Shown in pieces: positions 4,980-53,945 of a DNA stretch of 64,000 bases. A program made the translations under genes and the position numbers. This DNA is from Sporosalibacterium faouarense. Lineage in GTDB: Bacteria > Bacillota > Clostridia > Tissierellales > VENL01. The first letter of the stretch is position 1, and every line of letters begins with the position of its first letter. The notes below the pieces were generated by a model. It saw only the letters and a list, made by a program, of their open reading frames with translations, ran no database searches and had not been told where the DNA came from. The stretch spans positions 1-64,000 of the forward strand of contig NZ_JAETGO010000017.1 in NCBI RefSeq assembly GCF_016765695.1, given 5' to 3'.

Positions 4980-5841
4980 AATTTATGATTAAATAGTAAC
5001 CTGATTTACTAACCTCATCTGGTAGTTTTTTTCCTATGTAATTAATAATATCTTCGCTTATACCTAAATCATTCATTATTCTTTTATTCATACGATGGTT
5101 TAAATTGACTCCTAAAAGCCTTTCATAATACATAGTGCTAATAACATCAGCAATACATACTAGTTTTAGTTCATCCGTTGTATTTTCTGATAAGAAAGGC
5201 ATATGGTGGAACTCTACAATATCAGTGATGTCTCTACGAATATTCCATTTCCTACATAGCCATCCTCCAACTTCAGCATGGGTTATTCCGCCAAATATTG
5301 AGCGTTCCGCTATAACTTGGTGAATCCCTTTTTTTAATTTTTGGGTTACTTGGTCTAGACAGTTGGGAACACATGTATCTAGTAGAGCAACACCTATATC
5401 ATGGATAAGTCCATAGGAGAAAAGCTTGTACTTATCAGCAGTTTTTAGATGAGAAGATAACATACTACTAGCTATTGCAGTTCCTAATACGTGTTTTAAA
5501 TAGATATCCATCTTGAAGACTCTGTTTTCATTCGTCGGTGAATATGAAAAAAGCTCCATAGTAATGAAAAAAGTTAAAAGATTTTGAACTGTTTCCATTC
5601 CAAAAAAAACTATAGCATCCTTTATTGAAGTTAATTCTCGATTGGTTTTAAAATATCCTGTATTTAGATTTTTCATCATTAATTCATTCAACTTATCAAT
5701 TTTGCTTATTTTTTCCACTAAAATATCAATATCAGAATCAATTGGATTATTTAAAATTTTAAAAATATCACTGATATCCTTACTAGGTTTAGGTACTAAG
5801 TCTGAGTTATCTAAAATATGTAATAATTCTTGTTTATCCAA
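4978..5841 (-). CDS. HDOD-domain signalling protein
   Basis: This 287-residue single-domain protein is of the HDOD group, HD-hydrolase relatives found in bacterial signal transduction. The N-terminal part (about 15-125) shows helical HDOD features, including KDAIVFFGMETVQNLL. Unlike many HDOD proteins it keeps an HD pair (GLIHDIG, about residue 150) and later His residues (FHHMPF), so some phosphohydrolase activity is possible. The GTG at 5850 overlaps the Shine-Dalgarno AAGGGGTGA, and TTG at 5841 is five bases after it, so TTG is chosen. Two HD-GYP proteins are encoded nearby. Confidence 0.82.
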   Translation of the reverse strand: MDKQELLHILDNSDLVPKPSKDISDIFKILNNPIDSDIDILVEKISKIDKLNELMMKNLNTGYFKTNRELTSIKDAIVFFGMETVQNLLTFFITMELFSYSPTNENRVFKMDIYLKHVLGTAIASSMLSSHLKTADKYKLFSYGLIHDIGVALLDTCVPNCLDQVTQKLKKGIHQVIAERSIFGGITHAEVGGWLCRKWNIRRDITDIVEFHHMPFLSENTTDELKLVCIADVISTMYYERLLGVNLNHRMNKRIMNDLGISEDIINYIGKKLPDEVSKSGYYLIIN

Positions 5842-5953
5842 CCCATTCACCCCTTATAATTATATATTTTGTCTGTATGTAATTTAAAATAATTTGTAAA
5901 AATGAAGGTTAATATGTTTTAAAGAGCGTAAAGACTGAATCCACTCATTAAAC

Positions 5954-7135
5954 CTAACTTATTTTTATAAGTGTGTCAAGTATATACTTGTGATAATACC
6001 CTTTATTTACCAGATTGTTTAGAATCTGAAATGCTTTGTCACAAGACATGCCTGGTCGATACACTCTATCCTCGATTAATGCTTGATATATGTCACAGAT
6101 AGCTATTATCTGAGCCTCCTCAGTAAACTGTGAACCAGAAAGTCCTTCTGGATAACCAGTTCCTAAAAGGTTTTCGTGATGGTTAGGACCCCATTGAGAA
6201 ATTTCTTCAAATCCTTTTATTTGTTGTAACATAAACTTTGAATAGTAGGCATGTTTCTTTATAATTAACATTTCTTCATTTGTCAATTTCCCTGGTTTTT
6301 CAAGTATATAATTAGGTATAGTTAGCTTTCCAATATCATGTAAATAACCAGATATTTTTATTTTTCTGCACTTTAAGTCATCATATCCTAATGCTTTAGC
6401 TATTTTAAAAGCTCTTTTAGAAATCATTTTTGAATGAGTAAGAGTAAACTCACTCTTTTTATCAATGATCATAGCAAAGGCTTCAGAAATTTGTTCTAGT
6501 TCATCTATATTGATTTTAACAGATTGTTTAGGTATCAAAGGCAATAATAGAGAATCTATATTGTACACACAAAGATCTAACCATAATTTATCTTTTTGTA
6601 ATAGTTCTAGCAATATATCAACAAGACTATCGTTAAATTTCAAATTCTTTTCCTTTTCTAGCATGTCTCTAAAATCATTTCTATACTTAAAACTATCTTT
6701 AGTCTTATCATAATTTAATTCAACATAATCTGCTAATGATATAACTTGTGCTAGAAAAGGTATATTATCACCTTTTAGTCTTTCAACACCTAGTCCATCC
6801 CATCTCTCATGATGATACTTTATGGTGATTGCCACTTTTTTATCAACTGGTAAAGTTCTTACAATTTCATAGCCTACTTTGGTATGAATATCCTTTGCTA
6901 TAGTCTCTCCTTTTATAAATTCTTCACTTCCATGTAGAAAAATTGAATGAGAAAGGCCTATATCATGAAGAATCGCAGCTTGAAAGGTTAAGTTTAGAAA
7001 CTCTGGCTTGTTAAGCTTAAGGATGATTTGCATAGCGATGTATGCTACTCTCTTGGAATGCTGCAACTGATTACCTTCTGCTATATCTAGTAGGTATGAA
7101 AAGGATAACAATAGTGCATTCAAGTTAGTTTTCAT
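5954..7135 (-). CDS. Tandem HD-GYP protein, likely c-di-GMP phosphodiesterase (copy 1)
   Basis: This 393-residue cytoplasmic protein is built from two HD-GYP-like halves. The N-terminal half has HDIG near residue 55 and a variant second motif HHERWDGLGV. The C-terminal half has the full set: HDIGK, HH-E and GTGYPEGL, followed by the ICDIYQAL helix. HD-GYP domains hydrolyse c-di-GMP; the C-terminal half looks catalytic and the N-terminal one may be regulatory. The start is the ATG at 7135 with AAAGGAGG upstream. An upstream in-frame extension of 17 codons has no ribosome site. A close paralogue lies at 14138-15328. Confidence 0.9.
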   Translation of the reverse strand: MKTNLNALLLSFSYLLDIAEGNQLQHSKRVAYIAMQIILKLNKPEFLNLTFQAAILHDIGLSHSIFLHGSEEFIKGETIAKDIHTKVGYEIVRTLPVDKKVAITIKYHHERWDGLGVERLKGDNIPFLAQVISLADYVELNYDKTKDSFKYRNDFRDMLEKEKNLKFNDSLVDILLELLQKDKLWLDLCVYNIDSLLLPLIPKQSVKINIDELEQISEAFAMIIDKKSEFTLTHSKMISKRAFKIAKALGYDDLKCRKIKISGYLHDIGKLTIPNYILEKPGKLTNEEMLIIKKHAYYSKFMLQQIKGFEEISQWGPNHHENLLGTGYPEGLSGSQFTEEAQIIAICDIYQALIEDRVYRPGMSCDKAFQILNNLVNKGYYHKYILDTLIKIS

Positions 7136-31081: not shown

Positions 31082-31138
31082 TGTAAGTAAAGACAACAGT
31101 AATAACTTTAATAACTAAAAAAAATGGGAGGGGATTTC

Positions 31139-32125
31139 ATGCTACATATTTTCAGTGTAGATCCAGGTAAAAGAATTACTAAGTTTGCTTGGCTTAGTGA
31201 AGATGGCGAAATAAAAGTGGACAGCTTTCCTACTAAATATACTGAGATAAATGAATTAAATGATTCAGATATAGTAGGAGAAGATAGTTTTTTAGTAAAA
31301 TATAATGAACAAAAGCTTGTAGTGGGAGCACAAGGAGAATTAGATTCATTAGACAAAAGGACTAAGAAGAATAGCTTACATAAAATAGCTGCTTTTACAG
31401 CTGTAACTAGAATGCTTAAGGATAAGAAACCATCTGATGAAGATGAAATAGTATTAATCAATACAATACCAGGGACAAGCTATAAATCTAAAGAACTAAA
31501 AAAACAATATATAGATTTTTATCTAGAAGAAAAAGAACAATTAATTAGCGTAAATGATAAGGATTTTAGTTTTACTATTAAAGACACTTGTTTCCTACCA
31601 GAAGGAATTGGTTTTAAATTTAAGTATCCTGAGTTTTGCAAAGCAGGTAAGGTATGTGTAGTAGATATAGGTGGATTTAACATTGGGATCACAGTGTACA
31701 ATAATGGAGCTATAGAAAGAATAATTTCATTGGATTTAGGTGGTATTGAATTAGAAAACGACACTATAGAGTTACTGGAGGCAAAACTTGATCAAGGAAT
31801 TGATAAGAAAAACATATTGAAGTATTTGGGAAATGGTTATGTAGAAGATTGGGGTATTGAGGTAGAAGGTTCTAGAGAGATAATTAAGAACTCAAAGTGC
31901 AACTACATCGAGAAGTTCATTAAAGAAGCTGCAAATAAGAAAGTATATTTTAAAGATATGGATAAAATTAATTTCATTGGAGGCACATCTTTATCATTAA
32001 CAGAAGAAATAAAAGCACATAAAAACCTAAGTAACGTCAGTGAAGTATTCAAAGATGGTAAATATATAACAGTAATAGGAAATCTATTGTATGGGGTAAG
32101 GAAGTATAATGGAAGATCAATCTAA
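31139..32125 (+). CDS. parM: ParM/Alp-like actin-family partition ATPase
   Basis: This 328-residue actin-like ATPase of plasmid segregation (ParM type) forms filaments that push plasmid copies apart. Phosphate loop 1 is visible as FSVDPGKRITKFAW near the start, loop 2 as VVDIGGFNIGITVYNNG (about residue 180), and the adenosine region as FIGGTSLSLTEE (about 285). The ATG at 31139 has GGAGGGG upstream; the ATG 15 bases earlier is within that site. The ribbon-helix-helix partner gene overlaps its end, and centromere-like repeats follow, so the whole module is present. Confidence 0.88.
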   Translation: MLHIFSVDPGKRITKFAWLSEDGEIKVDSFPTKYTEINELNDSDIVGEDSFLVKYNEQKLVVGAQGELDSLDKRTKKNSLHKIAAFTAVTRMLKDKKPSDEDEIVLINTIPGTSYKSKELKKQYIDFYLEEKEQLISVNDKDFSFTIKDTCFLPEGIGFKFKYPEFCKAGKVCVVDIGGFNIGITVYNNGAIERIISLDLGGIELENDTIELLEAKLDQGIDKKNILKYLGNGYVEDWGIEVEGSREIIKNSKCNYIEKFIKEAANKKVYFKDMDKINFIGGTSLSLTEEIKAHKNLSNVSEVFKDGKYITVIGNLLYGVRKYNGRSI

Positions 32126-32441
32126 TATTAAGAAGAAACTAATCAGTATCAATATTAAAGAATATAAGGATGTTTTCAATGCAATAGAAAAAGAAAATAA
32201 GAATAATAATGGTTCAATATTTGTATGTGAAGCGGTTAGATTCTTTTTAAATAATAATCCAAGATTTAAAGCAGACGAATATAGAATAAGGGAAATAGTT
32301 AAAGAAGAATTGTTGACTTTACTTAATAGTGGAACAATTAATGTAGTAAATAATCATAAAGATAATATTCATGACATTATAAATAATGGTGATTTTGAAG
32401 ATGCATTTGCAGAGTTTGAAAAGTTTGATCAGGATGAATGA
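32109..32441 (+). CDS. parR: ParR-like ribbon-helix-helix centromere-binding protein
   Basis: This 110-residue protein has a beta strand and two helices in the first 50 residues (KLISINIKEYKDVFNAIEKE then FVCEAVRFFL), the pattern of ribbon-helix-helix ParR proteins. An acidic tail follows that would contact the ParM filament. It overlaps parM by 17 bases, as in other ParMR operons. Paired repeats immediately downstream are its likely binding site. Confidence 0.72.
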   Translation: MEDQSNIKKKLISINIKEYKDVFNAIEKENKNNNGSIFVCEAVRFFLNNNPRFKADEYRIREIVKEELLTLLNSGTINVVNNHKDNIHDIINNGDFEDAFAEFEKFDQDE

Positions 32442-32450
32442 TAAAGTTTC

Positions 32451-32520
32451 ATATATCTAAATATATCTACAGATATACAAAAGGCCAAACATTATATATC
32501 TAAATATATCTACAGATATA
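32451..32520. repeat. Two 27-bp direct repeats, candidate parC centromere
   Basis: Identical 27-bp units occupy 32451-32477 and 32494-32520, with starts 43 bp apart. Each holds two ATATATCTA half-motifs and a dyad TATATCT-AC-AGATATA. They lie just after the ParR-like stop codon and before the replication gene, so they may be the ParR-binding centromere, an operator, or both. Confidence 0.72.
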
Positions 32521-32569: not shown

Positions 32570-33493
32570 GTGAGTTATGAAATCAGAAGAAGTGGGAAAA
32601 GAAGCAGAAAACAACTTACTTTCAGCGATACCTATGGTGTATTAGATAATATAAGGGAATATGACTTTGATCTTGTAAGTTTCTATGTAACATTTACCCA
32701 GTTTATTGATAGGAGCTTATATAAACAAGGAGCAAATAGATTAATATTTAAAAATAATCCTGCATTATATAAAGCATTTAATATTTCTAATAACAAATTT
32801 TATAGATTGCTAAGAAAGGCTTATGAATGTGGACTGGTAGATATAAAAAAGGGAGCAAGTAATAAGAATATCTATGTATTGAATGACGATATTCCCTTAG
32901 AACCACTAAAGAAATATCGAGAATGGGAAAATAGATTTGATGCAAATGAAGAATTTGAAGAAGATACCCAGTCATCGCAAAATGCGACGACCGAAAATGA
33001 GCCATCGCAATCTGCGATGACGCAAACTGCGACGTCGCAATTTGCGACGACATATAATAGTTCTAATATTTATAATAATTCTAATATTTATAAATCAGTC
33101 TATCAGTCAGAAGAAGATAAAAGTATTTCAAATAATGAAAGCGAGATTGACAAGATAGAATTAAACAAATTTAATCAAATTATTAAAAATTGTGAATTAC
33201 ACTTGCTAGACAAATCAAAAAGGGTGTCTATAGAAAAGGCACTACGACTTTTATATTTTAGTGATAAGAGATTGCAAATTGGGGATAACTACATTCCTCG
33301 AGAAATGGTTAGAAAAGATATGAAAAGGATAACTTTACCAGTAATAGAGTATGCACTAAAGAAGTTTGAAAATGCTTGCAGGACTAGGCAAATTAGCAGT
33401 ACTATGGGATATTTGAAAGTATGTATATATAATTCCATTGCAGAAATGGATTTAGATATTGAAAGTGAACTTTTACATAAAGGTATATTATAA
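32570..33493 (+). CDS. Replication initiator-like protein with internal iterons
   Basis: This 307-residue protein has a winged-helix-like N-domain (about 25-110; NNKFYRLLRKAYECGLVDIKK), a low-complexity linker (about 125-180) and a helical C-domain (about 190-300). This split layout matches RepA_N-type theta plasmid initiators, where the origin lies in the linker-coding DNA; indeed that DNA here carries a 15-bp-periodic iteron array. The start is GTG at 32570 with GAGGTGA five bases before. It follows parMR, so replication and partition are adjacent as on plasmids. Family assignment is by architecture, not by a recognised motif. Confidence 0.6.
   Translation: MSYEIRRSGKRSRKQLTFSDTYGVLDNIREYDFDLVSFYVTFTQFIDRSLYKQGANRLIFKNNPALYKAFNISNNKFYRLLRKAYECGLVDIKKGASNKNIYVLNDDIPLEPLKKYREWENRFDANEEFEEDTQSSQNATTENEPSQSAMTQTATSQFATTYNSSNIYNNSNIYKSVYQSEEDKSISNNESEIDKIELNKFNQIIKNCELHLLDKSKRVSIEKALRLLYFSDKRLQIGDNYIPREMVRKDMKRITLPVIEYALKKFENACRTRQISSTMGYLKVCIYNSIAEMDLDIESELLHKGIL
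32975..33047 (+). repeat. Iteron array inside the initiator gene, candidate origin
   Basis: Four palindromic 13-mers TCGCA-N3-TGCGA (one with ACGCA) start at 32975, 33005, 33020 and 33035, with a degenerate fifth (ACCGAAAATGAGC) at 32990. The period is exactly 15 bp, so the array also encodes five-residue units such as SQNAT, SQSAM, TQTAT and SQFAT. This is GC-rich compared with its surroundings. Confidence 0.8.
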
Positions 33494-33519: not shown

Positions 33520-33687
33520 ATGAGTAAATTAGAAGATATGAGACATAATCTACACTTGGAAATAACTGATAATAACAATGAATTAATTAATGATAAAGTA
33601 CTTGAACAAAGTCAGAAATTAGACAAGCTGGTAGTAAAGGAGCAAAGAACTCGATTGAATAGAATTAGGAGGTATAAAAATGACTAA
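33520..33687 (+). CDS. Spo0E-like aspartyl-phosphate phosphatase
   Basis: This 55-residue protein has the Spo0E family signature S31-Q-K-L-D35 in the second of two helices (LINDKVLEQSQKLDKLV). Family members remove phosphate from Spo0A and so delay sporulation. The length is normal for the family. The start ATG follows ACAAGGAAG. Its stop overlaps the next gene's ATG by eight bases. Carriage on a mobile element next to replication genes suggests that the element restrains host sporulation. Confidence 0.82.
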   Translation: MSKLEDMRHNLHLEITDNNNELINDKVLEQSQKLDKLVVKEQRTRLNRIRRYKND

Positions 33688-34243
33688 ATGGAATTCATGG
33701 GCTAAAAATCATAAAGAGTATAAGAAAAGCTTAGGCAAGCTTAGTAACTTTATAGAAGTAGAAAAGAATGAACCTAAGAATAATTCTAGAGACGTTAACT
33801 TGGAAATAGCTAGGTCAATGAAAAGTGGACTTAAAGAAGCTGAAAAGGCAGTCAAGAATAAAGCTATATATGAGTTCAATAGCCTAGATGAAGAAGAGAT
33901 TAAAGATCTAAACCTAACTGATAGACAAAGGGAAATAGCTATTTTAAGGCAAAGTTTATCCTATGAAGAAATAGCAGACAAGCTTAAAATGAAACGGGGT
34001 GCAGTATATGATATATATACACAAGTGCTCAAAAAGTTTGACAAATATAAAAATGATAAGGAAGTATACTTACTTAGCAATCAACAGAAGGAGATATATA
34101 AGCTTTGTAATCAAGGAAAGACTAAAAAGGAAATTGCTAATAGTTTAAACACAACACCAAGTGCTATTAAAACACAACTTAATAGAATCAAGAGAAAACT
34201 AATGAAGGAGGGTAACAAAATTACATGCATTAGAATGGGGTAG
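33680..34243 (+). CDS. Sigma-70 region 4-like regulator with two HTH units
   Basis: This 187-residue protein contains two successive helix-turn-helix units. The first (about 80-125) is LTDRQREIAILRQSLSYEEI and onward; the second (about 130-177) is LSNQQKEIYKLCNQGKTKKE and onward. Both have the sigma region 4 / LuxR-like pattern. There is no sigma region 2, so it is unlikely to be a full sigma factor and could act as an activator or as a split-sigma partner. It is the last gene before a terminator and the secretion operon. Confidence 0.72.
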   Translation: MTKWNSWAKNHKEYKKSLGKLSNFIEVEKNEPKNNSRDVNLEIARSMKSGLKEAEKAVKNKAIYEFNSLDEEEIKDLNLTDRQREIAILRQSLSYEEIADKLKMKRGAVYDIYTQVLKKFDKYKNDKEVYLLSNQQKEIYKLCNQGKTKKEIANSLNTTPSAIKTQLNRIKRKLMKEGNKITCIRMG

Positions 34244-47383: not shown

Positions 47384-50300
47384 TTGAATAAGAGCAATAG
47401 AGCATTAACTATACTCCTTATGATAACAATGTTAGTGCAAGTGATATATTTTCCACCTAAGATTGTAAATGGAGAAGAATATAGTTATGGAGATCCTTTA
47501 GTTTATGAAGGAATAAGTTATTTGATTTCCTTTGATAGCATTAAGGATGAGCTGCCAATGGGAATAACCGAAACAAATGCAAATGGTTTAAAGCTTAATA
47601 CAGAGATATGGGTAGATCATCATAAAGCTGTATATGGATGGTTTGATATAGATAGAAGTAGTGGAATGGAAAGTCCTAAATACCAGGATATAAACTCAGG
47701 AGTAAATGATAAGAAAACCACTACCCTAAATCCTAAAGGTGCATATTTTAGGGATGATGAAGGAAATCCAGTTGAATGGAGATGGTGGGGATTTTCCTTT
47801 GATGGAAATCCATATATAAACTTCTTTTTTCCTCCCGATTCCACAAGTGGCAGACCTAATGAAAACAAGAAATGGTACTACAATGTGTGGGACGTAAAGG
47901 ATGAAGATAAAATAAGTGTGTTCAATACTGGAGCAATATTTAAAGGTAATGTTTACGCTAAAAAATGGATTAATGACTCTATAGATTGGGAAATAAAAAA
48001 TGGGATATTTGCATTAAATAACGAATCAGTACCTAAAGAACATTTTGATGGAATGGAAAAGTATAGATATATAAATGTTCTTAGTCCTCCCACTACAGAA
48101 TATTCTGGAGATGGAATAATGAGACATCGGGATAGTTCGGGAAAGGTATGGTATCAAACCTTCTCAATAAACCCTATTAAGGAAAAGGAAGAGCCTGATA
48201 AGATTAGTAATATAGAGATTAAAGAAAAGAATAATCTATTACTATCAGAGCTCATGGGAGCAATTACAATCGAGGTAACTGTAACAGCTAAATTAGAAGA
48301 TGAGTTCTGTTTTGACAATATTTCTTTAGAAGAAAAATATACAGGACCTAAATATGATGAATATGAAAGATCAGTTTACTATCACAGGAAGAACATTGAG
48401 GAATGGGATATAACCTTAATAGATAAAAACCATAGTAAAATGGTCAATGAAGTGGAAGATATGAGTACTGGAAATATGGTTAAGAAGAAATTTGAAATAG
48501 TTTATACCAGGGAGGAATTAGAGAGTAATAGCTCCTTAGATTTTGAAGCAAATACCTTTATAAGCTATGATAATGGATTCGTTGGAAGTCCAGTGAAAGC
48601 TACTAACAATGCTACAGTTACAGTTGAAGAAGGGAACGGATTCAAGTCTCTATTCACAATCAACAATGATATAACAGTAAGCGAGGATGCTCCCCTTGTA
48701 CCTTCTAAAATTAATTATATGAATGCTAGTGTGGGAGATATAGCAAGTTATAACATAGAAATAGTAAACGAAACGACAAAGGAAATGACTTCTGTATCGG
48801 GAAGTACAGTTGATAATGACTCAGTTAATCAAGCCTTCTTTGATATGGCAAACCCGTATATAGAAAATTATTACAACTATGTTGATGAAGAAAATGGAAA
48901 TGATCACTACTTTACTGTTAGACAGACTGTAGAAAGTCCTAGGGGCAGACAAGACATATACGAGGAAACAGTGAAAATATCAGTAGATTCATATATTCCT
49001 ATAGTAGTACCTCCAGATGTTAGTCTACCTAAAAGAGCCTTTGATATAGTTGAATATAAACCTAGAGATAATACAGATATGACAGATGTTGTAGACAAAA
49101 AGGTATTCGTAGATGGACAAGCAGTAGATTATAATGAGTTTTTTAGTGGAAGTTATACCTTTGGAGCTTCAGATAAAGATAAAATAGTCCAGGTTAAAAT
49201 ATTATATACAAGTGTTGATGATGTAACGTCTAAATTTATATCCTATGTAAGGGTACTATCAACTAAACCGAAGGTGCAGTTTAAATTAGATGGTTACTTT
49301 AAGGAGAATAGGAAGCTAACACTAGATAACACCTCAGATAATGCTAATGATCCTTATCTAATTTCTAATTACCCTATTAGCTATTCATGGAGCTATGGAG
49401 CTATAGGTGATAGTAATGATTCAGATAGAAGGATGAAGGATATTTCAGTTCTATACAAAGAGCTTCTATATAAGGAACCAGGAACCTATACAATAACGTT
49501 GGAAGGAAGTAATTCTTTAGGAAGAGTAGCAGATCCCTATGTACTTGAATTTTCTATACAAGAAGATACGACTCCAGCTATAATAATGAACTTGTGGAAT
49601 AACGTTCTGGCCAGAGATGAAGTTTTAAATATGAGCTATGAAGCAGTTAGTATAGAAGGAGATATAATAAGCACTAACAGACTTGAAATTTGGTATGACA
49701 GTGGCAATGACGGAACCTTTGATCAATTAATAAATACATTTGAAGATCCGACATTATTTAAGGATTATAGTCCACCAAAGTTAGGATCATATAAAATGGT
49801 GAGCTATGTAGAAGAAGATTTTGGGCAAGAAACTATACCAGAGTTTATTACTGAAGATGACAAAGTTAGTGAAACTAAGGAAAGATTATTCTATGTACAA
49901 AACCTTAGACCTATGACTCAGCTATATGTTGATATACCACAGGATTTTCCTGAAGTAGACATATATTTCATGAATGATAAAAACTTAGCTAGAAATACAA
50001 ACGATAATATCAGGAATGAAAGAATAGACTATGAAAATGAGCTAAGAAAGAATAATATACTACCTAAAATAGAAGTGTGGGATATGCACACTTATATGTA
50101 CTCTAAAACAGCTTATTCTTCAAGAAGTACAGGGACCAGGTATCCTTCTTCATCTAAATCATACTCTTCAGGAGGTTATTCAGGTACTTTAAGTAGATAT
50201 AAGGTAGTTGACAATGGTGAAAATGTAGATTTTGGTAAATATGTAACTAAGACAGATAGTAAAACTGCTACTGGTACAAAAAGAACTACATCTTGGAGTA

Positions 50301-52792
50301 AGTATGATGCAGATGGAAAAATGACAAGTTCATCCGGATCCAGTAGCACATCGTCCATTTCTTATAGTAGTGGAGGATATACAGGTACTTTACACAAAAA
50401 TGGATATTCCTTTGATGGAGAGTCAAAAACTACTTATTCTGATGGCAGCTATAAAATAACTAGAAGATATACTGGATATTATTCAGGAACTGTAACTAAG
50501 ACCTACCAAGTATGGGAGAGTGATTGGCGTTGGGTATCAGATTATAGGGGCTACTATTCAGGAACTGTAAGAAAATATGTAACACAACCCTATAGTAATC
50601 CCTTCAGAACATTATCTGATAAATACATTGTGTATGTTTCAGATGATTATATAAACCAAATGTCAAACCTTACAATGGTTAGAGAAAAATCGGATGCAAA
50701 ATTAATTTTAGTAGGTTCAGAAGCGATAAAAAATCAAGTAGAGTATGATTACTTTATTCCTATATCGAATGATATTGGAGACTTCATGCCTCAAATAATG
50801 AATATAGTAACAACTGCAAATCCTTATGAGTTAGGGTACAAGATTATAAAGGGAGAAGCATTTACGATTAATTATGCAGATATAGATGAAGAAGGAGATC
50901 CAATTATAGAAAGGAAGTTTCAATATATACATGATGAAAATTACTATGACAATAGTGAGGGGATAGCTAGTGTTGCTTACTCGATATTTGATGAAACTCA
51001 ATACTCGAACACTGAGATTACTTCTTTTAACAAAGTGGGTAAATATGAGGTCTATAGAAGGATTAAAGATGAGCCTATAGACATACCAAGCATGGGATTA
51101 TATTCAAATGAACCTAAGCTTACTATATATGTACACAGAAAGCCTATAGCAAATGCAACTTTAGACTGGGATTATGATAACTCAACAAGCACATATAAGA
51201 CCACATGGGTAGATAAATCCTATGACCTTGACCATGAGTTTAGTCGTCCAGATAAAGGCATAATAGAAAGAAAAATTATGTATAGAAGAAATAGTGGAGA
51301 GTGGAAGTATAAGATTCCTGATAATCTTATACCAGGTAATTATGAGCTCAGGTATTATGTTAAAGACCTAGAAGGCGTATGGTCTGAACCATATAGCATG
51401 GACTTCACATTGGCCTCAGCTCCACCGATACAATTTAGTGCGTCTGCAAGAGCTCTAGATAACAACTTTAGTTTAGCAAGCATTCCTGCCAGTGAGTATT
51501 TAGAACTATATAATATTTGGACCAGGTATCCATATTCATTAAAGTTACAAACTGCTTTATATGATGGAGGAACTAGAGTAAGCCCAATTAAAACTATTAA
51601 TTACTATACAGGAACTAAAAATGATAACGATATAGATTGGGATAATATAGATTATGAAGTCCCTGCTACACTTTCTGATAAAAGTTATACATTAAAATTA
51701 ACTGCAGTTGATGCAAATAATAGTAGTAAGGAGAAAGAATTAAATTATAATGTAACACTATCTACTCCAGTAGATTTATTAGTTACCTATATGCCTGAAG
51801 AATACATAACTGAAGAAGAAAATATTATGGAAGTTGAAACATCTAAATATGTTGAGGAAGTGGAAGTTACTCTATTTAAAGGGACTCCATATGAAGTAAC
51901 AGAGTATATGAATCTTGAAGATAGTCAAACTAAAAAGACTTGGAACCATTCATATATTCCATCATCATCTATCCCTGAAGGAAATTATATGGCTTCAGTT
52001 ACTGCAACAACATTTAATGGAAATACTGAATCAATAGATATGAACTTTAAGCTTGAGAACGTTAAGTTATTTGATTTTAAGGTAATCAAAGTAACTGATT
52101 GGGATTTTGAATCTATATGGAAGAATACAGGACTTGAAATCGGAGTAGGGAACTTGGCCATAGATGAGACAGACCATCCTGAAGGAAAATTAATGAAACG
52201 AGGATATGCATTCTACTTCAGTGTTTCATCGAAGGGACTGGATGGTCCTAATGATACTATACGGATAAGACCAAAGTTTTATGATATGAATACAGGCAAT
52301 GAACTAGACATGTATTATGCAACCCATAAGGATGCATATGTATTGGCTACAAGTGACTATGGAGATAGGGACGAGAACGATAATATAAGGATATTTTACA
52401 CTGGAGATTTAAATGATGATGAACTACTTGGATATCACAATGAAATTTTTCTACCTAAGAGTTTAAGAACCATTAATGGGCAAGAACAGACATGGATAGG
52501 AAGATATGGAATTCCTTCAACAGCTATTTTCGTTGAGAAAGGAAAAGAACCTTGGATTGAAGAAAATAGGATTTTAAATCCAGTCAAAGTTAATTTTGAT
52601 ATAGATGCATTTAAGAATGGAGCAAAGAAGCTAGATTATATTGATAGCGGTCAGTGGGAAAAAGAAAGAAGAGATAATAATGGGTTAATAATGGACCTAA
52701 TAAAATATAACAAATATAGTCCAGGAGATGTAATAGTTATTGATCCTAGTTTATCGATAGATGACGATTATGAAGTAACACCAATTTGGTAA
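47384..52792 (+). CDS. Giant secreted surface protein / putative adhesin, 1802 residues
   Basis: A signal peptide (1-30, ending VNGEEY) precedes a long extracellular chain with many beta-rich, Ig/PKD-like stretches. A Ser/Tyr/Thr-rich zone at about 905-1065 contains four YSGT-type motifs (GGYSGTL, GGYTGTL, GYYSGTV, GYYSGTV at about residues 930, 997, 1030 and 1056). No LPxTG sorting signal or C-terminal membrane helix is visible, so attachment may be through the SLH protein encoded upstream or the pilus. It starts at TTG behind AAAGGAGG and is followed by a terminator. A role in contact between mating cells is likely but inferred. Confidence 0.75.
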   Translation: MNKSNRALTILLMITMLVQVIYFPPKIVNGEEYSYGDPLVYEGISYLISFDSIKDELPMGITETNANGLKLNTEIWVDHHKAVYGWFDIDRSSGMESPKYQDINSGVNDKKTTTLNPKGAYFRDDEGNPVEWRWWGFSFDGNPYINFFFPPDSTSGRPNENKKWYYNVWDVKDEDKISVFNTGAIFKGNVYAKKWINDSIDWEIKNGIFALNNESVPKEHFDGMEKYRYINVLSPPTTEYSGDGIMRHRDSSGKVWYQTFSINPIKEKEEPDKISNIEIKEKNNLLLSELMGAITIEVTVTAKLEDEFCFDNISLEEKYTGPKYDEYERSVYYHRKNIEEWDITLIDKNHSKMVNEVEDMSTGNMVKKKFEIVYTREELESNSSLDFEANTFISYDNGFVGSPVKATNNATVTVEEGNGFKSLFTINNDITVSEDAPLVPSKINYMNASVGDIASYNIEIVNETTKEMTSVSGSTVDNDSVNQAFFDMANPYIENYYNYVDEENGNDHYFTVRQTVESPRGRQDIYEETVKISVDSYIPIVVPPDVSLPKRAFDIVEYKPRDNTDMTDVVDKKVFVDGQAVDYNEFFSGSYTFGASDKDKIVQVKILYTSVDDVTSKFISYVRVLSTKPKVQFKLDGYFKENRKLTLDNTSDNANDPYLISNYPISYSWSYGAIGDSNDSDRRMKDISVLYKELLYKEPGTYTITLEGSNSLGRVADPYVLEFSIQEDTTPAIIMNLWNNVLARDEVLNMSYEAVSIEGDIISTNRLEIWYDSGNDGTFDQLINTFEDPTLFKDYSPPKLGSYKMVSYVEEDFGQETIPEFITEDDKVSETKERLFYVQNLRPMTQLYVDIPQDFPEVDIYFMNDKNLARNTNDNIRNERIDYENELRKNNILPKIEVWDMHTYMYSKTAYSSRSTGTRYPSSSKSYSSGGYSGTLSRYKVVDNGENVDFGKYVTKTDSKTATGTKRTTSWSKYDADGKMTSSSGSSSTSSISYSSGGYTGTLHKNGYSFDGESKTTYSDGSYKITRRYTGYYSGTVTKTYQVWESDWRWVSDYRGYYSGTVRKYVTQPYSNPFRTLSDKYIVYVSDDYINQMSNLTMVREKSDAKLILVGSEAIKNQVEYDYFIPISNDIGDFMPQIMNIVTTANPYELGYKIIKGEAFTINYADIDEEGDPIIERKFQYIHDENYYDNSEGIASVAYSIFDETQYSNTEITSFNKVGKYEVYRRIKDEPIDIPSMGLYSNEPKLTIYVHRKPIANATLDWDYDNSTSTYKTTWVDKSYDLDHEFSRPDKGIIERKIMYRRNSGEWKYKIPDNLIPGNYELRYYVKDLEGVWSEPYSMDFTLASAPPIQFSASARALDNNFSLASIPASEYLELYNIWTRYPYSLKLQTALYDGGTRVSPIKTINYYTGTKNDNDIDWDNIDYEVPATLSDKSYTLKLTAVDANNSSKEKELNYNVTLSTPVDLLVTYMPEEYITEEENIMEVETSKYVEEVEVTLFKGTPYEVTEYMNLEDSQTKKTWNHSYIPSSSIPEGNYMASVTATTFNGNTESIDMNFKLENVKLFDFKVIKVTDWDFESIWKNTGLEIGVGNLAIDETDHPEGKLMKRGYAFYFSVSSKGLDGPNDTIRIRPKFYDMNTGNELDMYYATHKDAYVLATSDYGDRDENDNIRIFYTGDLNDDELLGYHNEIFLPKSLRTINGQEQTWIGRYGIPSTAIFVEKGKEPWIEENRILNPVKVNFDIDAFKNGAKKLDYIDSGQWEKERRDNNGLIMDLIKYNKYSPGDVIVIDPSLSIDDDYEVTPIW

Positions 52793-52865: not shown

Positions 52866-53945
52866 TTGATTTATTCTCTAATGGCTTTAACATTAATATT
52901 TACAAGTCTTATAGGATGGCAGCTATATAGAGTTAATAAGTTTAAGAATGAAATACAAGATTTAAATAGATATAAGATTATAAAGGATGTTATGGAAGTA
53001 AGTAGTAGAGAAAAAAATATAATTAAAGGACTTAGGGATATAAACTCAGTGATACTTGAAGAACTTCAAATGGATTATAGTTCCTTTTTTATTTACAACG
53101 AGGATACAGATGAAATAAGTCTTAAAGAAACAAATTTAATTAATGAAAGGCTAAACAGAGAATTAACTGACATAAAAGAATATAGGGCAGAGTATGAAGA
53201 TACTCCAAGGGACTTTAGGGAAGTCTTTGAAGAAAATAAATATATAATCCTATTTTCTGAAGTTGATTTAGAATATCCAACTGCAGGAGAAAGGGGAATT
53301 AAAAGTTCTATACTCATCCCACTTATATTTAATTCAAAAGCCATAGGATATTGGCTTATAGAAGATTGCAGTACTAAATATTCAAAGGAAATTGATAAGG
53401 AGCAATTAGTTATACTTGCTGACCAATTAGCTGCAGTAATAGCTAGTGGGCTATATACATATTTAGATCCTTTGCTAAATATTCCAAAGAGAGATTTTTT
53501 ATTAGAATTTATTGAAGATAGTATGCAAAATAAGGATAAGACATCGGTTGTGTTTGCTGATATAGACCACTTTAAAAGTGTTAATGATAACTATGGTCAC
53601 AATATTGGGGACCAGGTACTTAAAATTGTAGCACAATTATTTCAACAAAGTATTAGAACTACTGATATGGTAGGACGATATGGAGGAGAAGAAATAGTCT
53701 TTTGTCTTCCAGATATAAACAAAGAAGATGCAGTTAATAGGATAGAAGATATTAGAAGGAATTTAGAAAGGGCAGAGTTAGAATTAAGTGATGAAACTAT
53801 TATAAAGATAACTGCAAGCTTTGGTGTGGTTACATATCCTGATGAATTTAGTGGAAAAGTACCGCCTGAAGAAATATTAAAAAAGGCTGATGAAAGAGTA
53901 TATATTGCAAAAGAACAAGGAAGGAATAGAGTAGTTTATAGATAG
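52866..53945 (+). CDS. Diguanylate cyclase, GAF-like plus GGDEF
   Basis: This 359-residue protein has a short N-terminal membrane helix (1-18), a GAF-like sensor region (about 40-200) and a C-terminal GGDEF domain (about 210-359). The active loop is GGEEI at 273-277 and the Mg-binding DIDHFKSVND motif is intact, so it should make c-di-GMP. No RxxD inhibitory site stands before the loop at the standard distance. It starts at TTG with GGAGTG. It lies between the adhesin and secretion genes, suggesting that it tunes surface attachment. Confidence 0.9.
   Translation: MIYSLMALTLIFTSLIGWQLYRVNKFKNEIQDLNRYKIIKDVMEVSSREKNIIKGLRDINSVILEELQMDYSSFFIYNEDTDEISLKETNLINERLNRELTDIKEYRAEYEDTPRDFREVFEENKYIILFSEVDLEYPTAGERGIKSSILIPLIFNSKAIGYWLIEDCSTKYSKEIDKEQLVILADQLAAVIASGLYTYLDPLLNIPKRDFLLEFIEDSMQNKDKTSVVFADIDHFKSVNDNYGHNIGDQVLKIVAQLFQQSIRTTDMVGRYGGEEIVFCLPDINKEDAVNRIEDIRRNLERAELELSDETIIKITASFGVVTYPDEFSGKVPPEEILKKADERVYIAKEQGRNRVVYR

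Follow-up and report, generated by a model that had tools for sequence, protein, structure and literature searches.

Palindromic iterons in the linker-coding part of a replication initiator gene: a probable gene-embedded origin in an apparently integrated element of Sporosalibacterium faouarense

Lambda-type origins lie inside phage O genes. Plasmids in which the origin lies inside the initiator gene have also been described, and are listed in PMC3155836. In the staphylococcal plasmid pSK41, four Rep boxes situated midway along rep are bound by the initiator's N-domain. The peptide linking the two domains can be dispensed with, and the C-domain, whose conservation stops at the genus level, binds DnaG primase (PMC5703833). 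The initiator of pPR9 is chimeric, its N-domain and origin having been replaced as one block (PMC5703833).

The window analysed here is the whole stretch of 64,000 nucleotides from Sporosalibacterium faouarense NZ_JAETGO010000017.1 (GCF_016765695.1), positions 1–64,000, forward strand. It contains a gene with a comparable arrangement, made up of the following parts:

32570–33493, forward strand: rep, predicted replication initiator of 307 residues with a GTG start (open reading frame; C-domain homologous to DUF6017 initiators)
32570–32944, forward strand: N-domain coding part (residues 1–125), winged-helix type, presumed to bind the iterons (low-confidence AF2 model; 66% identity with relative L002)
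32945–33133, forward strand: linker coding part (residues 126–188), predicted disordered, putative origin (pLDDT below 50 over residues 115–190)
33134–33490, forward strand: C-domain coding part (residues 189–307), DUF6017-like (profile comparison, intermediates and model)
32975–32987, unstranded: palindromic iteron, exact, TCGCA-AAA-TGCGA (motif scan)
32990–33002, unstranded: doubtful fifth site, very degenerate, 5 of 10 specified positions, ACCGAAAATGAGC (sequence)
33005–33017, unstranded: palindromic iteron, exact, TCGCA-ATC-TGCGA (motif scan)
33020–33032, unstranded: palindromic iteron with one mismatch, ACGCA-AAC-TGCGA, ACGCAAACTGCGA (motif scan)
33035–33047, unstranded: palindromic iteron, exact, TCGCA-ATT-TGCGA (motif scan)

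The palindromic repeats are real. Codons 135–160 of the open reading frame hold 13-mers of the form TCGCA-N3-TGCGA at 15-bp steps, in which the arms are constant between copies and the middle three bases differ. The initial annotation had counted four such 13-mers and one degenerate copy; the placement in the linker-coding part and the 15-bp steps hold, but three copies rather than four are exact, and the fifth, at 32990, is barely recognizable and unconvincing on its own, so that the strong copies stand 30 bp apart with weaker sites in between. With at most one mismatch the motif has 4 matches in the window against a mean of 0.29 (0 of 100 shuffles reach 4), and none of 20,000 codon-resampled versions drawn with local codon usage contained as many perfect 5-3-5 palindromes as the block, which has three, although both the shuffle and the resampling figures assume independent copies and are somewhat overstated if the copies were duplicated. 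In the assembly of 4,119,796 bases the exact 13-mer occurs at these three places only. The block is written in codons that are locally rare (TCG, GCG and ACG, each 3–5% of its own codon family), has a G+C content of 53% against 30% for the rep gene, and has a codon log-probability of −45.9 against −24.7 ± 2.8 for resampled versions of the same peptide (7.5 standard deviations below), so that by this measure no other part of the gene is as extreme. The use of locally rare codons, together with the uniqueness of the palindromes in the genome, points to constraint on, or amplification of, the DNA rather than the peptide. A repeat-pair test, which compares direct and inverted 10-mers with codon-resampled controls, gave 47 pairs for the gene against 9.3 ± 4.1, with 87% in the linker; identity at lag 15 alone was only slightly in excess (0.80 against 0.77 in controls).

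The encoded protein had no significant match in Pfam, PHROGs or NCBIfam. Its N-domain had no Pfam match above cut-off, the RepA_N model (PF06970) matched neither the whole protein (E up to 1) nor L002 (E up to 0.1), and an hhalign comparison of this N-domain pair with the RepA_N relatives gave a probability of 21%, with RepA_N homology undetected. As judged from sequence, the protein falls outside the RepA_N family. The Pfam model of DUF6017 (PF19481) did not match it either; hhalign aligned the C-domain with DUF6017 at 97% over 113 columns, and the relative L027 scored 30.2 bits against a Pfam cut-off of 27. Through profile comparison and intermediate sequences, the C-domain is assigned as a DUF6017 relative.

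The whole-protein model has a winged-helix-like N-domain of low confidence, a disordered linker (residues 115–190) and a folded C-domain. The best PDB matches of the N-domain model, whose pLDDT is mostly 40–60, are the Rep initiators 4pt7, 4pql and 5kbj (Z 8.2–8.5; top match Z 8.5, rmsd 3.4, 86 aligned), with MarR-type folds close behind, a ranking to be read as that of a low-confidence model. The C-domain modelled alone reached a pLDDT of 86, and its best VIA match was, weakly, 4pqk (Z 5.3, rmsd 5.4, 85 aligned), an entry entitled as the C-terminal domain of a DNA binding protein. From titles and dates, we take 4pql, 4pt7, 5kbj and 4pqk to be the structures of staphylococcal Rep by Schumacher et al. 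2014. A PDB sequence search with the domain profiles gave no credible match. By fold, the best matches of both modelled domains would thus be RepA_N-type Rep structures.

Searches with the full protein against genome contigs, viral contigs, plasmids and phages returned no homologue, and the C-domain alignment found nothing in viral contigs; relatives came to light when whole genomes from the order were searched. These homologues share mainly the C-terminal 110 residues with the window protein and carry various N-domains: RepA_N in L003 and L025 (E < 1e-23), HTH_36 in L019, and a phage O-like or DnaD-like domain in L005 and L027. The N-domain type of the window recurs in L002 (66% identical over the aligned part) and in L004, a decayed copy, and a search for it in 391 genomes of the class returned the window itself only. 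PHROGs labels the relatives as replication initiation proteins or DnaD-like helicase loaders. In one genome, a decayed relative of the window rep with a frame break and two TCCTAAAAMAGGA palindromes (L037, about 5750–6700 of G039:C1) is separated by about 20 kb from an intact rep of RepA_N type (L038, 6289–7317 of G039:C1). The rep of the closest relative is split over two contig ends (L035 on G010:C136 and L036 on G010:C145); the C145 end carries a ParM-like gene, a small gene and the start of rep, arranged much as in the window, and C136 the remaining rep and a sigma-like gene.

TCGCA-N3-TGCGA was found in none of the fetched relatives. Taken literally, these are the homologues lacking the palindromes that the initial annotation had named as evidence against itself, yet they carry other palindromes or repeats at the same place in the linker, as one would expect of sites that vary together with the DNA-binding domain. 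In the linker of L002, three copies of CGGTTG follow one another every 23 bp as part of CGGTTGGNCCAAAA-like units; in that of L025, the same 23-bp spacing separates four copies of TTTCAGTC, which lie within TGAAAGANTCTTTCA-like palindromes; that of L003, with its RepA_N N-domain, has TGAAAGANTCTTTCA-like repeats at 23 bp; and the streptococcal plasmid genes L105 and L106 have linker repeats of the CATTGGGTCAAAATGACCCAATG type. In the repeat-pair test, L002, L003, L005, L019, L024, L025, L026, L105 and L106 reached P ≤ 0.01, the peak of L024 lying outside the linker. Since 23 cannot be divided by three, the 23-bp arrays span all three reading frames, which indicates that the repeat unit is DNA. 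The proposal that DNA and protein repeats evolve together consequently lacks support as a general rule, since L002 and the RepA_N-type relatives step by 23 bp through all three frames.

A validation set of DUF6017 genes was chosen by PF19481 alone, irrespective of repeats, from 291 genomes of the class, 55 of which were DUF6017-positive. Twenty of the 27 genes (14 of 20 similarity clusters) beat every codon-resampled control and 7 of 27 did not rise above the controls; the repeat peaks lay mostly in the linker. The two dominant steps were mostly 15/30 bp or 23 bp, the former going with HTH_36 and the latter with RepA_N N-domains where this was tested, and among L110–L139 the 15-bp and 23-bp classes mostly track N-domain type. 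L110 carries TTGGAAAATCCAA at 15-bp steps, the same architecture of 13-bp palindrome and 15-bp step as in the window, and in several DUF6017 arrays the best lag is 30 bp, as for the strong sites of the window. Linker repeats therefore appear to be common in the DUF6017 family. Two points are the weakest in this comparison: the exact window iterons are carried by one genome only, with no second genome sharing them, and L002 has another iteron sequence and a 23-bp step despite an aligned N-domain that is 66% identical, a shift that is large for such similar DNA-binding domains and counts against the reading.

Two further elements follow the iterons:

33054–33092, forward strand: AT-rich stretch in which 13 successive triplets have T as their second base (TnnT), putative unwinding element (P 0.022 against the codon-resampled gene)
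33095–33108, forward strand: (TCNN)3TC element, TCAGTCTATCAGTC, common to relatives with several N-domain types

The layout of an iteron replicon, tandem repeats beside an AT-rich region, is thus present in the window at the level of sequence. Near the linker, DnaA boxes occur as one-mismatch sites only, fewer than chance, the nearest at 33280; some iteron replicons are without DnaA boxes. A run with T at every third base rose above controls in L001, L006 and L025 and did not in most relatives, and reading the AT-rich run as a DnaA-trio is only suggestive. The host oriC, which follows dnaA (L140, about 1779–2000 of G000:C62), has DnaA boxes and a clear DnaA-trio/TnnT run, CTACTACTATTACTACTA, and DnaD of B. 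subtilis binds TnnT pairs in single strands (PMC10201434); on these grounds the AT-rich run is a plausible candidate loading element.

Sixteen of the 21 related genes contain four TC dinucleotides spaced at 4-bp intervals; the expectation with fixed peptides is 0.29, a comparison that is not an independent test, as the element was noticed on the same 21 genes; GA at period 4 was also raised (12 against 2 expected). In the linkers of L002–L026 the element appears in all three reading frames and alongside differing N-domains. It is absent from the host oriC locus, and it was found, in the same part of the linker, in 2 of the 27 wider DUF6017 genes, a rarity outside the window lineage that marks it as a lineage feature rather than a general one. 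A scan with the 16-mer TCAGTCTATCAGTCAG gave 50 genome matches, of which the true ones are rep genes of Anaerosalibacter and the remainder are most likely chance. The element may be new. We would entertain, with more doubt than confidence, the idea that four to five TC dinucleotides in 4-bp register make up an undescribed origin element, recognized in single- or double-stranded form by a host loader or by the C-domain and held fixed while iterons and N-domains are swapped; these genes would then be modular origin cassettes in which the recognition part can be exchanged and the part for opening or loading stays tied to the lineage.

The surroundings of rep include the following features:

31124–32125, forward strand: actin-like partition protein, ParM/Alp (ALP_N 2.7e-12; PHROG 'partition protein' 7.9e-41)
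32109–32441, forward strand: ParR-like small protein, so called from its position, with no convincing family match
32451–32520, unstranded: two identical 27-bp AT-rich repeats (32451–32477 and 32494–32520) between the ParR-like gene and rep
33680–34243, forward strand: sigma region-4-like protein, adjoining rep also in L002/L035
21743–23368, reverse strand: large serine recombinase, close to the element's left end

Of the parMR pair claimed beside rep, the actin-like partition gene is thus borne out by its family match and the ParR assignment stands on position. The 27-bp repeats are a candidate parC or rep operator. The contig runs into chromosomal genes on both sides of the element: at its left end the serine recombinase adjoins a TrkH-type gene, and to the right, beyond the window, are genes that read as the walRK region. 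Within it lie genes for secretion- or conjugation-type ATPases and an FtsK-type protein. The chromosomal flanks and the recombinase agree with the initial description of an integrated element, but no att repeat of at least 13 bp was found; as no relaxase was identified in the element either, 'integrative conjugative element' is no more than a likely label. Also inside the element are a GGDEF protein (52866–53945) and an HD_5 protein (L031:6278–6892), which perhaps serve c-di-GMP control of transfer. A surface-type protein of 1802 residues (47384–52792), with Ig-like and PKD-type matches, adjoins an SLH-domain protein within the transfer-type region.

Three other accounts of the palindromes were weighed against an origin. 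They could form an internal operator, at which the initiator or an XRE-type repressor (29360/29857) blocks rep transcription while the origin lies elsewhere, for example at 32451–32520. This account is favoured by the perfect palindromes of 13 bp, of a kind suited to dimeric regulators, by nearby short genes that read as XRE-type repressors and by another cluster of repeats immediately before rep; yet the genome has no further copy of the palindrome, at promoters or elsewhere, the family has linker repeats that change in sequence and keep their position in the gene, and that position is the proven origin in RepA_N plasmids (PMC5703833). We regard an operator as unlikely.

The block might instead be a minisatellite, an in-frame 15-bp tandem duplication tolerated in a disordered linker and having no function as DNA. 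That the step of 15 bp keeps the frame, that the linker is predicted to be disordered and that duplication would copy rare codons along with the rest all fit this account, which nevertheless seems very improbable: the palindrome arms are kept as the middle three bases vary among copies, duplication alone is not expected to give palindromy, the 23-bp arrays of relatives are out of frame, and linker repeats of unrelated sequence are common across the family. Least credible, with hardly any weight in our judgement, is a centromere-like site of the neighbouring ParMR-type partition system; actin-like and ParR-like genes do lie directly upstream, but L003 and L025 have linker repeats with no ParM match in the (short) flanks searched, and 32451–32520 is the better parC candidate.

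From these comparisons we therefore consider it likely that an integrated mobile element with partition genes of the actin type has its iteron origin in the linker DNA of its own initiator gene. The predicted winged-helix N-domain of the initiator would bind the 13-bp palindromes as a multimer, and the AT-rich DNA just downstream (33054–33108) would open. The DUF6017-type C-domain could recruit the host helicase–primase machinery, by analogy with pSK41, in which the C-domain binds DnaG primase, and the excised element would replicate as a theta-type circle kept by the actin-type partition genes. Initiator genes with embedded origins seemingly extend beyond classical RepA_N plasmids: linker repeats are the rule in the DUF6017 family, with 15-bp and 23-bp classes that mostly track the type of DNA-binding domain, and they offer a simple sequence-based predictor of the origins of integrated elements, many of which may replicate in a plasmid-like manner once excised. 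The TC element is a concrete candidate recognition site for the host loader or the conserved C-domain. In the literature searched, no paper joins DUF6017 with iterons or with ICE replication.

Among described systems, the origins of RepA_N plasmids (pSK41; also pSK1, pAD1 and pLS32) combine a winged-helix N-domain, a linker encoded by the origin, central Rep boxes and a C-domain for host factors (PMC5703833, PMC3155836). The window gene matches this layout, with a winged-helix-like N-domain predicted at low confidence, and its iterons likewise lie centrally in rep between N- and C-domains. The window differs in an N-domain that the RepA_N model does not recognize, a DUF6017-like C-domain, residence in an apparently integrated element, and perfect 13-bp palindromes at 15 bp. 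The initial comparison with RepA_N plasmids is thus well supported by the linkers and the structure matches, and departs from them in that the protein is not RepA_N by sequence. As in pPR9, N-domain and origin vary jointly while the C-domain is kept (PMC5703833), the C-domain here being combined with RepA_N, HTH_36, phage O-like or window-type N-domains, although the N-domain family and the host group are other than those of pPR9. The DUF6017 initiators of Clostridia and streptococcal elements (L110–L139, L105 and L106) share C-domain homology and linker repeats, many of the 13-bp/15-bp kind, but have HTH_36, RepA_N or O-like N-domains and different iteron sequences. In repABC plasmids oriV also lies in the initiator coding sequence, inside repC (PMC3155836), which is without iterons, and for the phage O genes the hhalign comparison did not show sequence homology to the window N-domain. 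Given a protein that is not RepA_N by sequence and has no direct DUF6017 match, we class it as one that would work like these initiators, with DUF6017 homology of the C-domain at profile level. The best reading of the window is of a well-formed gene-embedded origin, ordinary in kind, that would work in the manner of the RepA_N origins of pSK41 and the chimeric pPR9.
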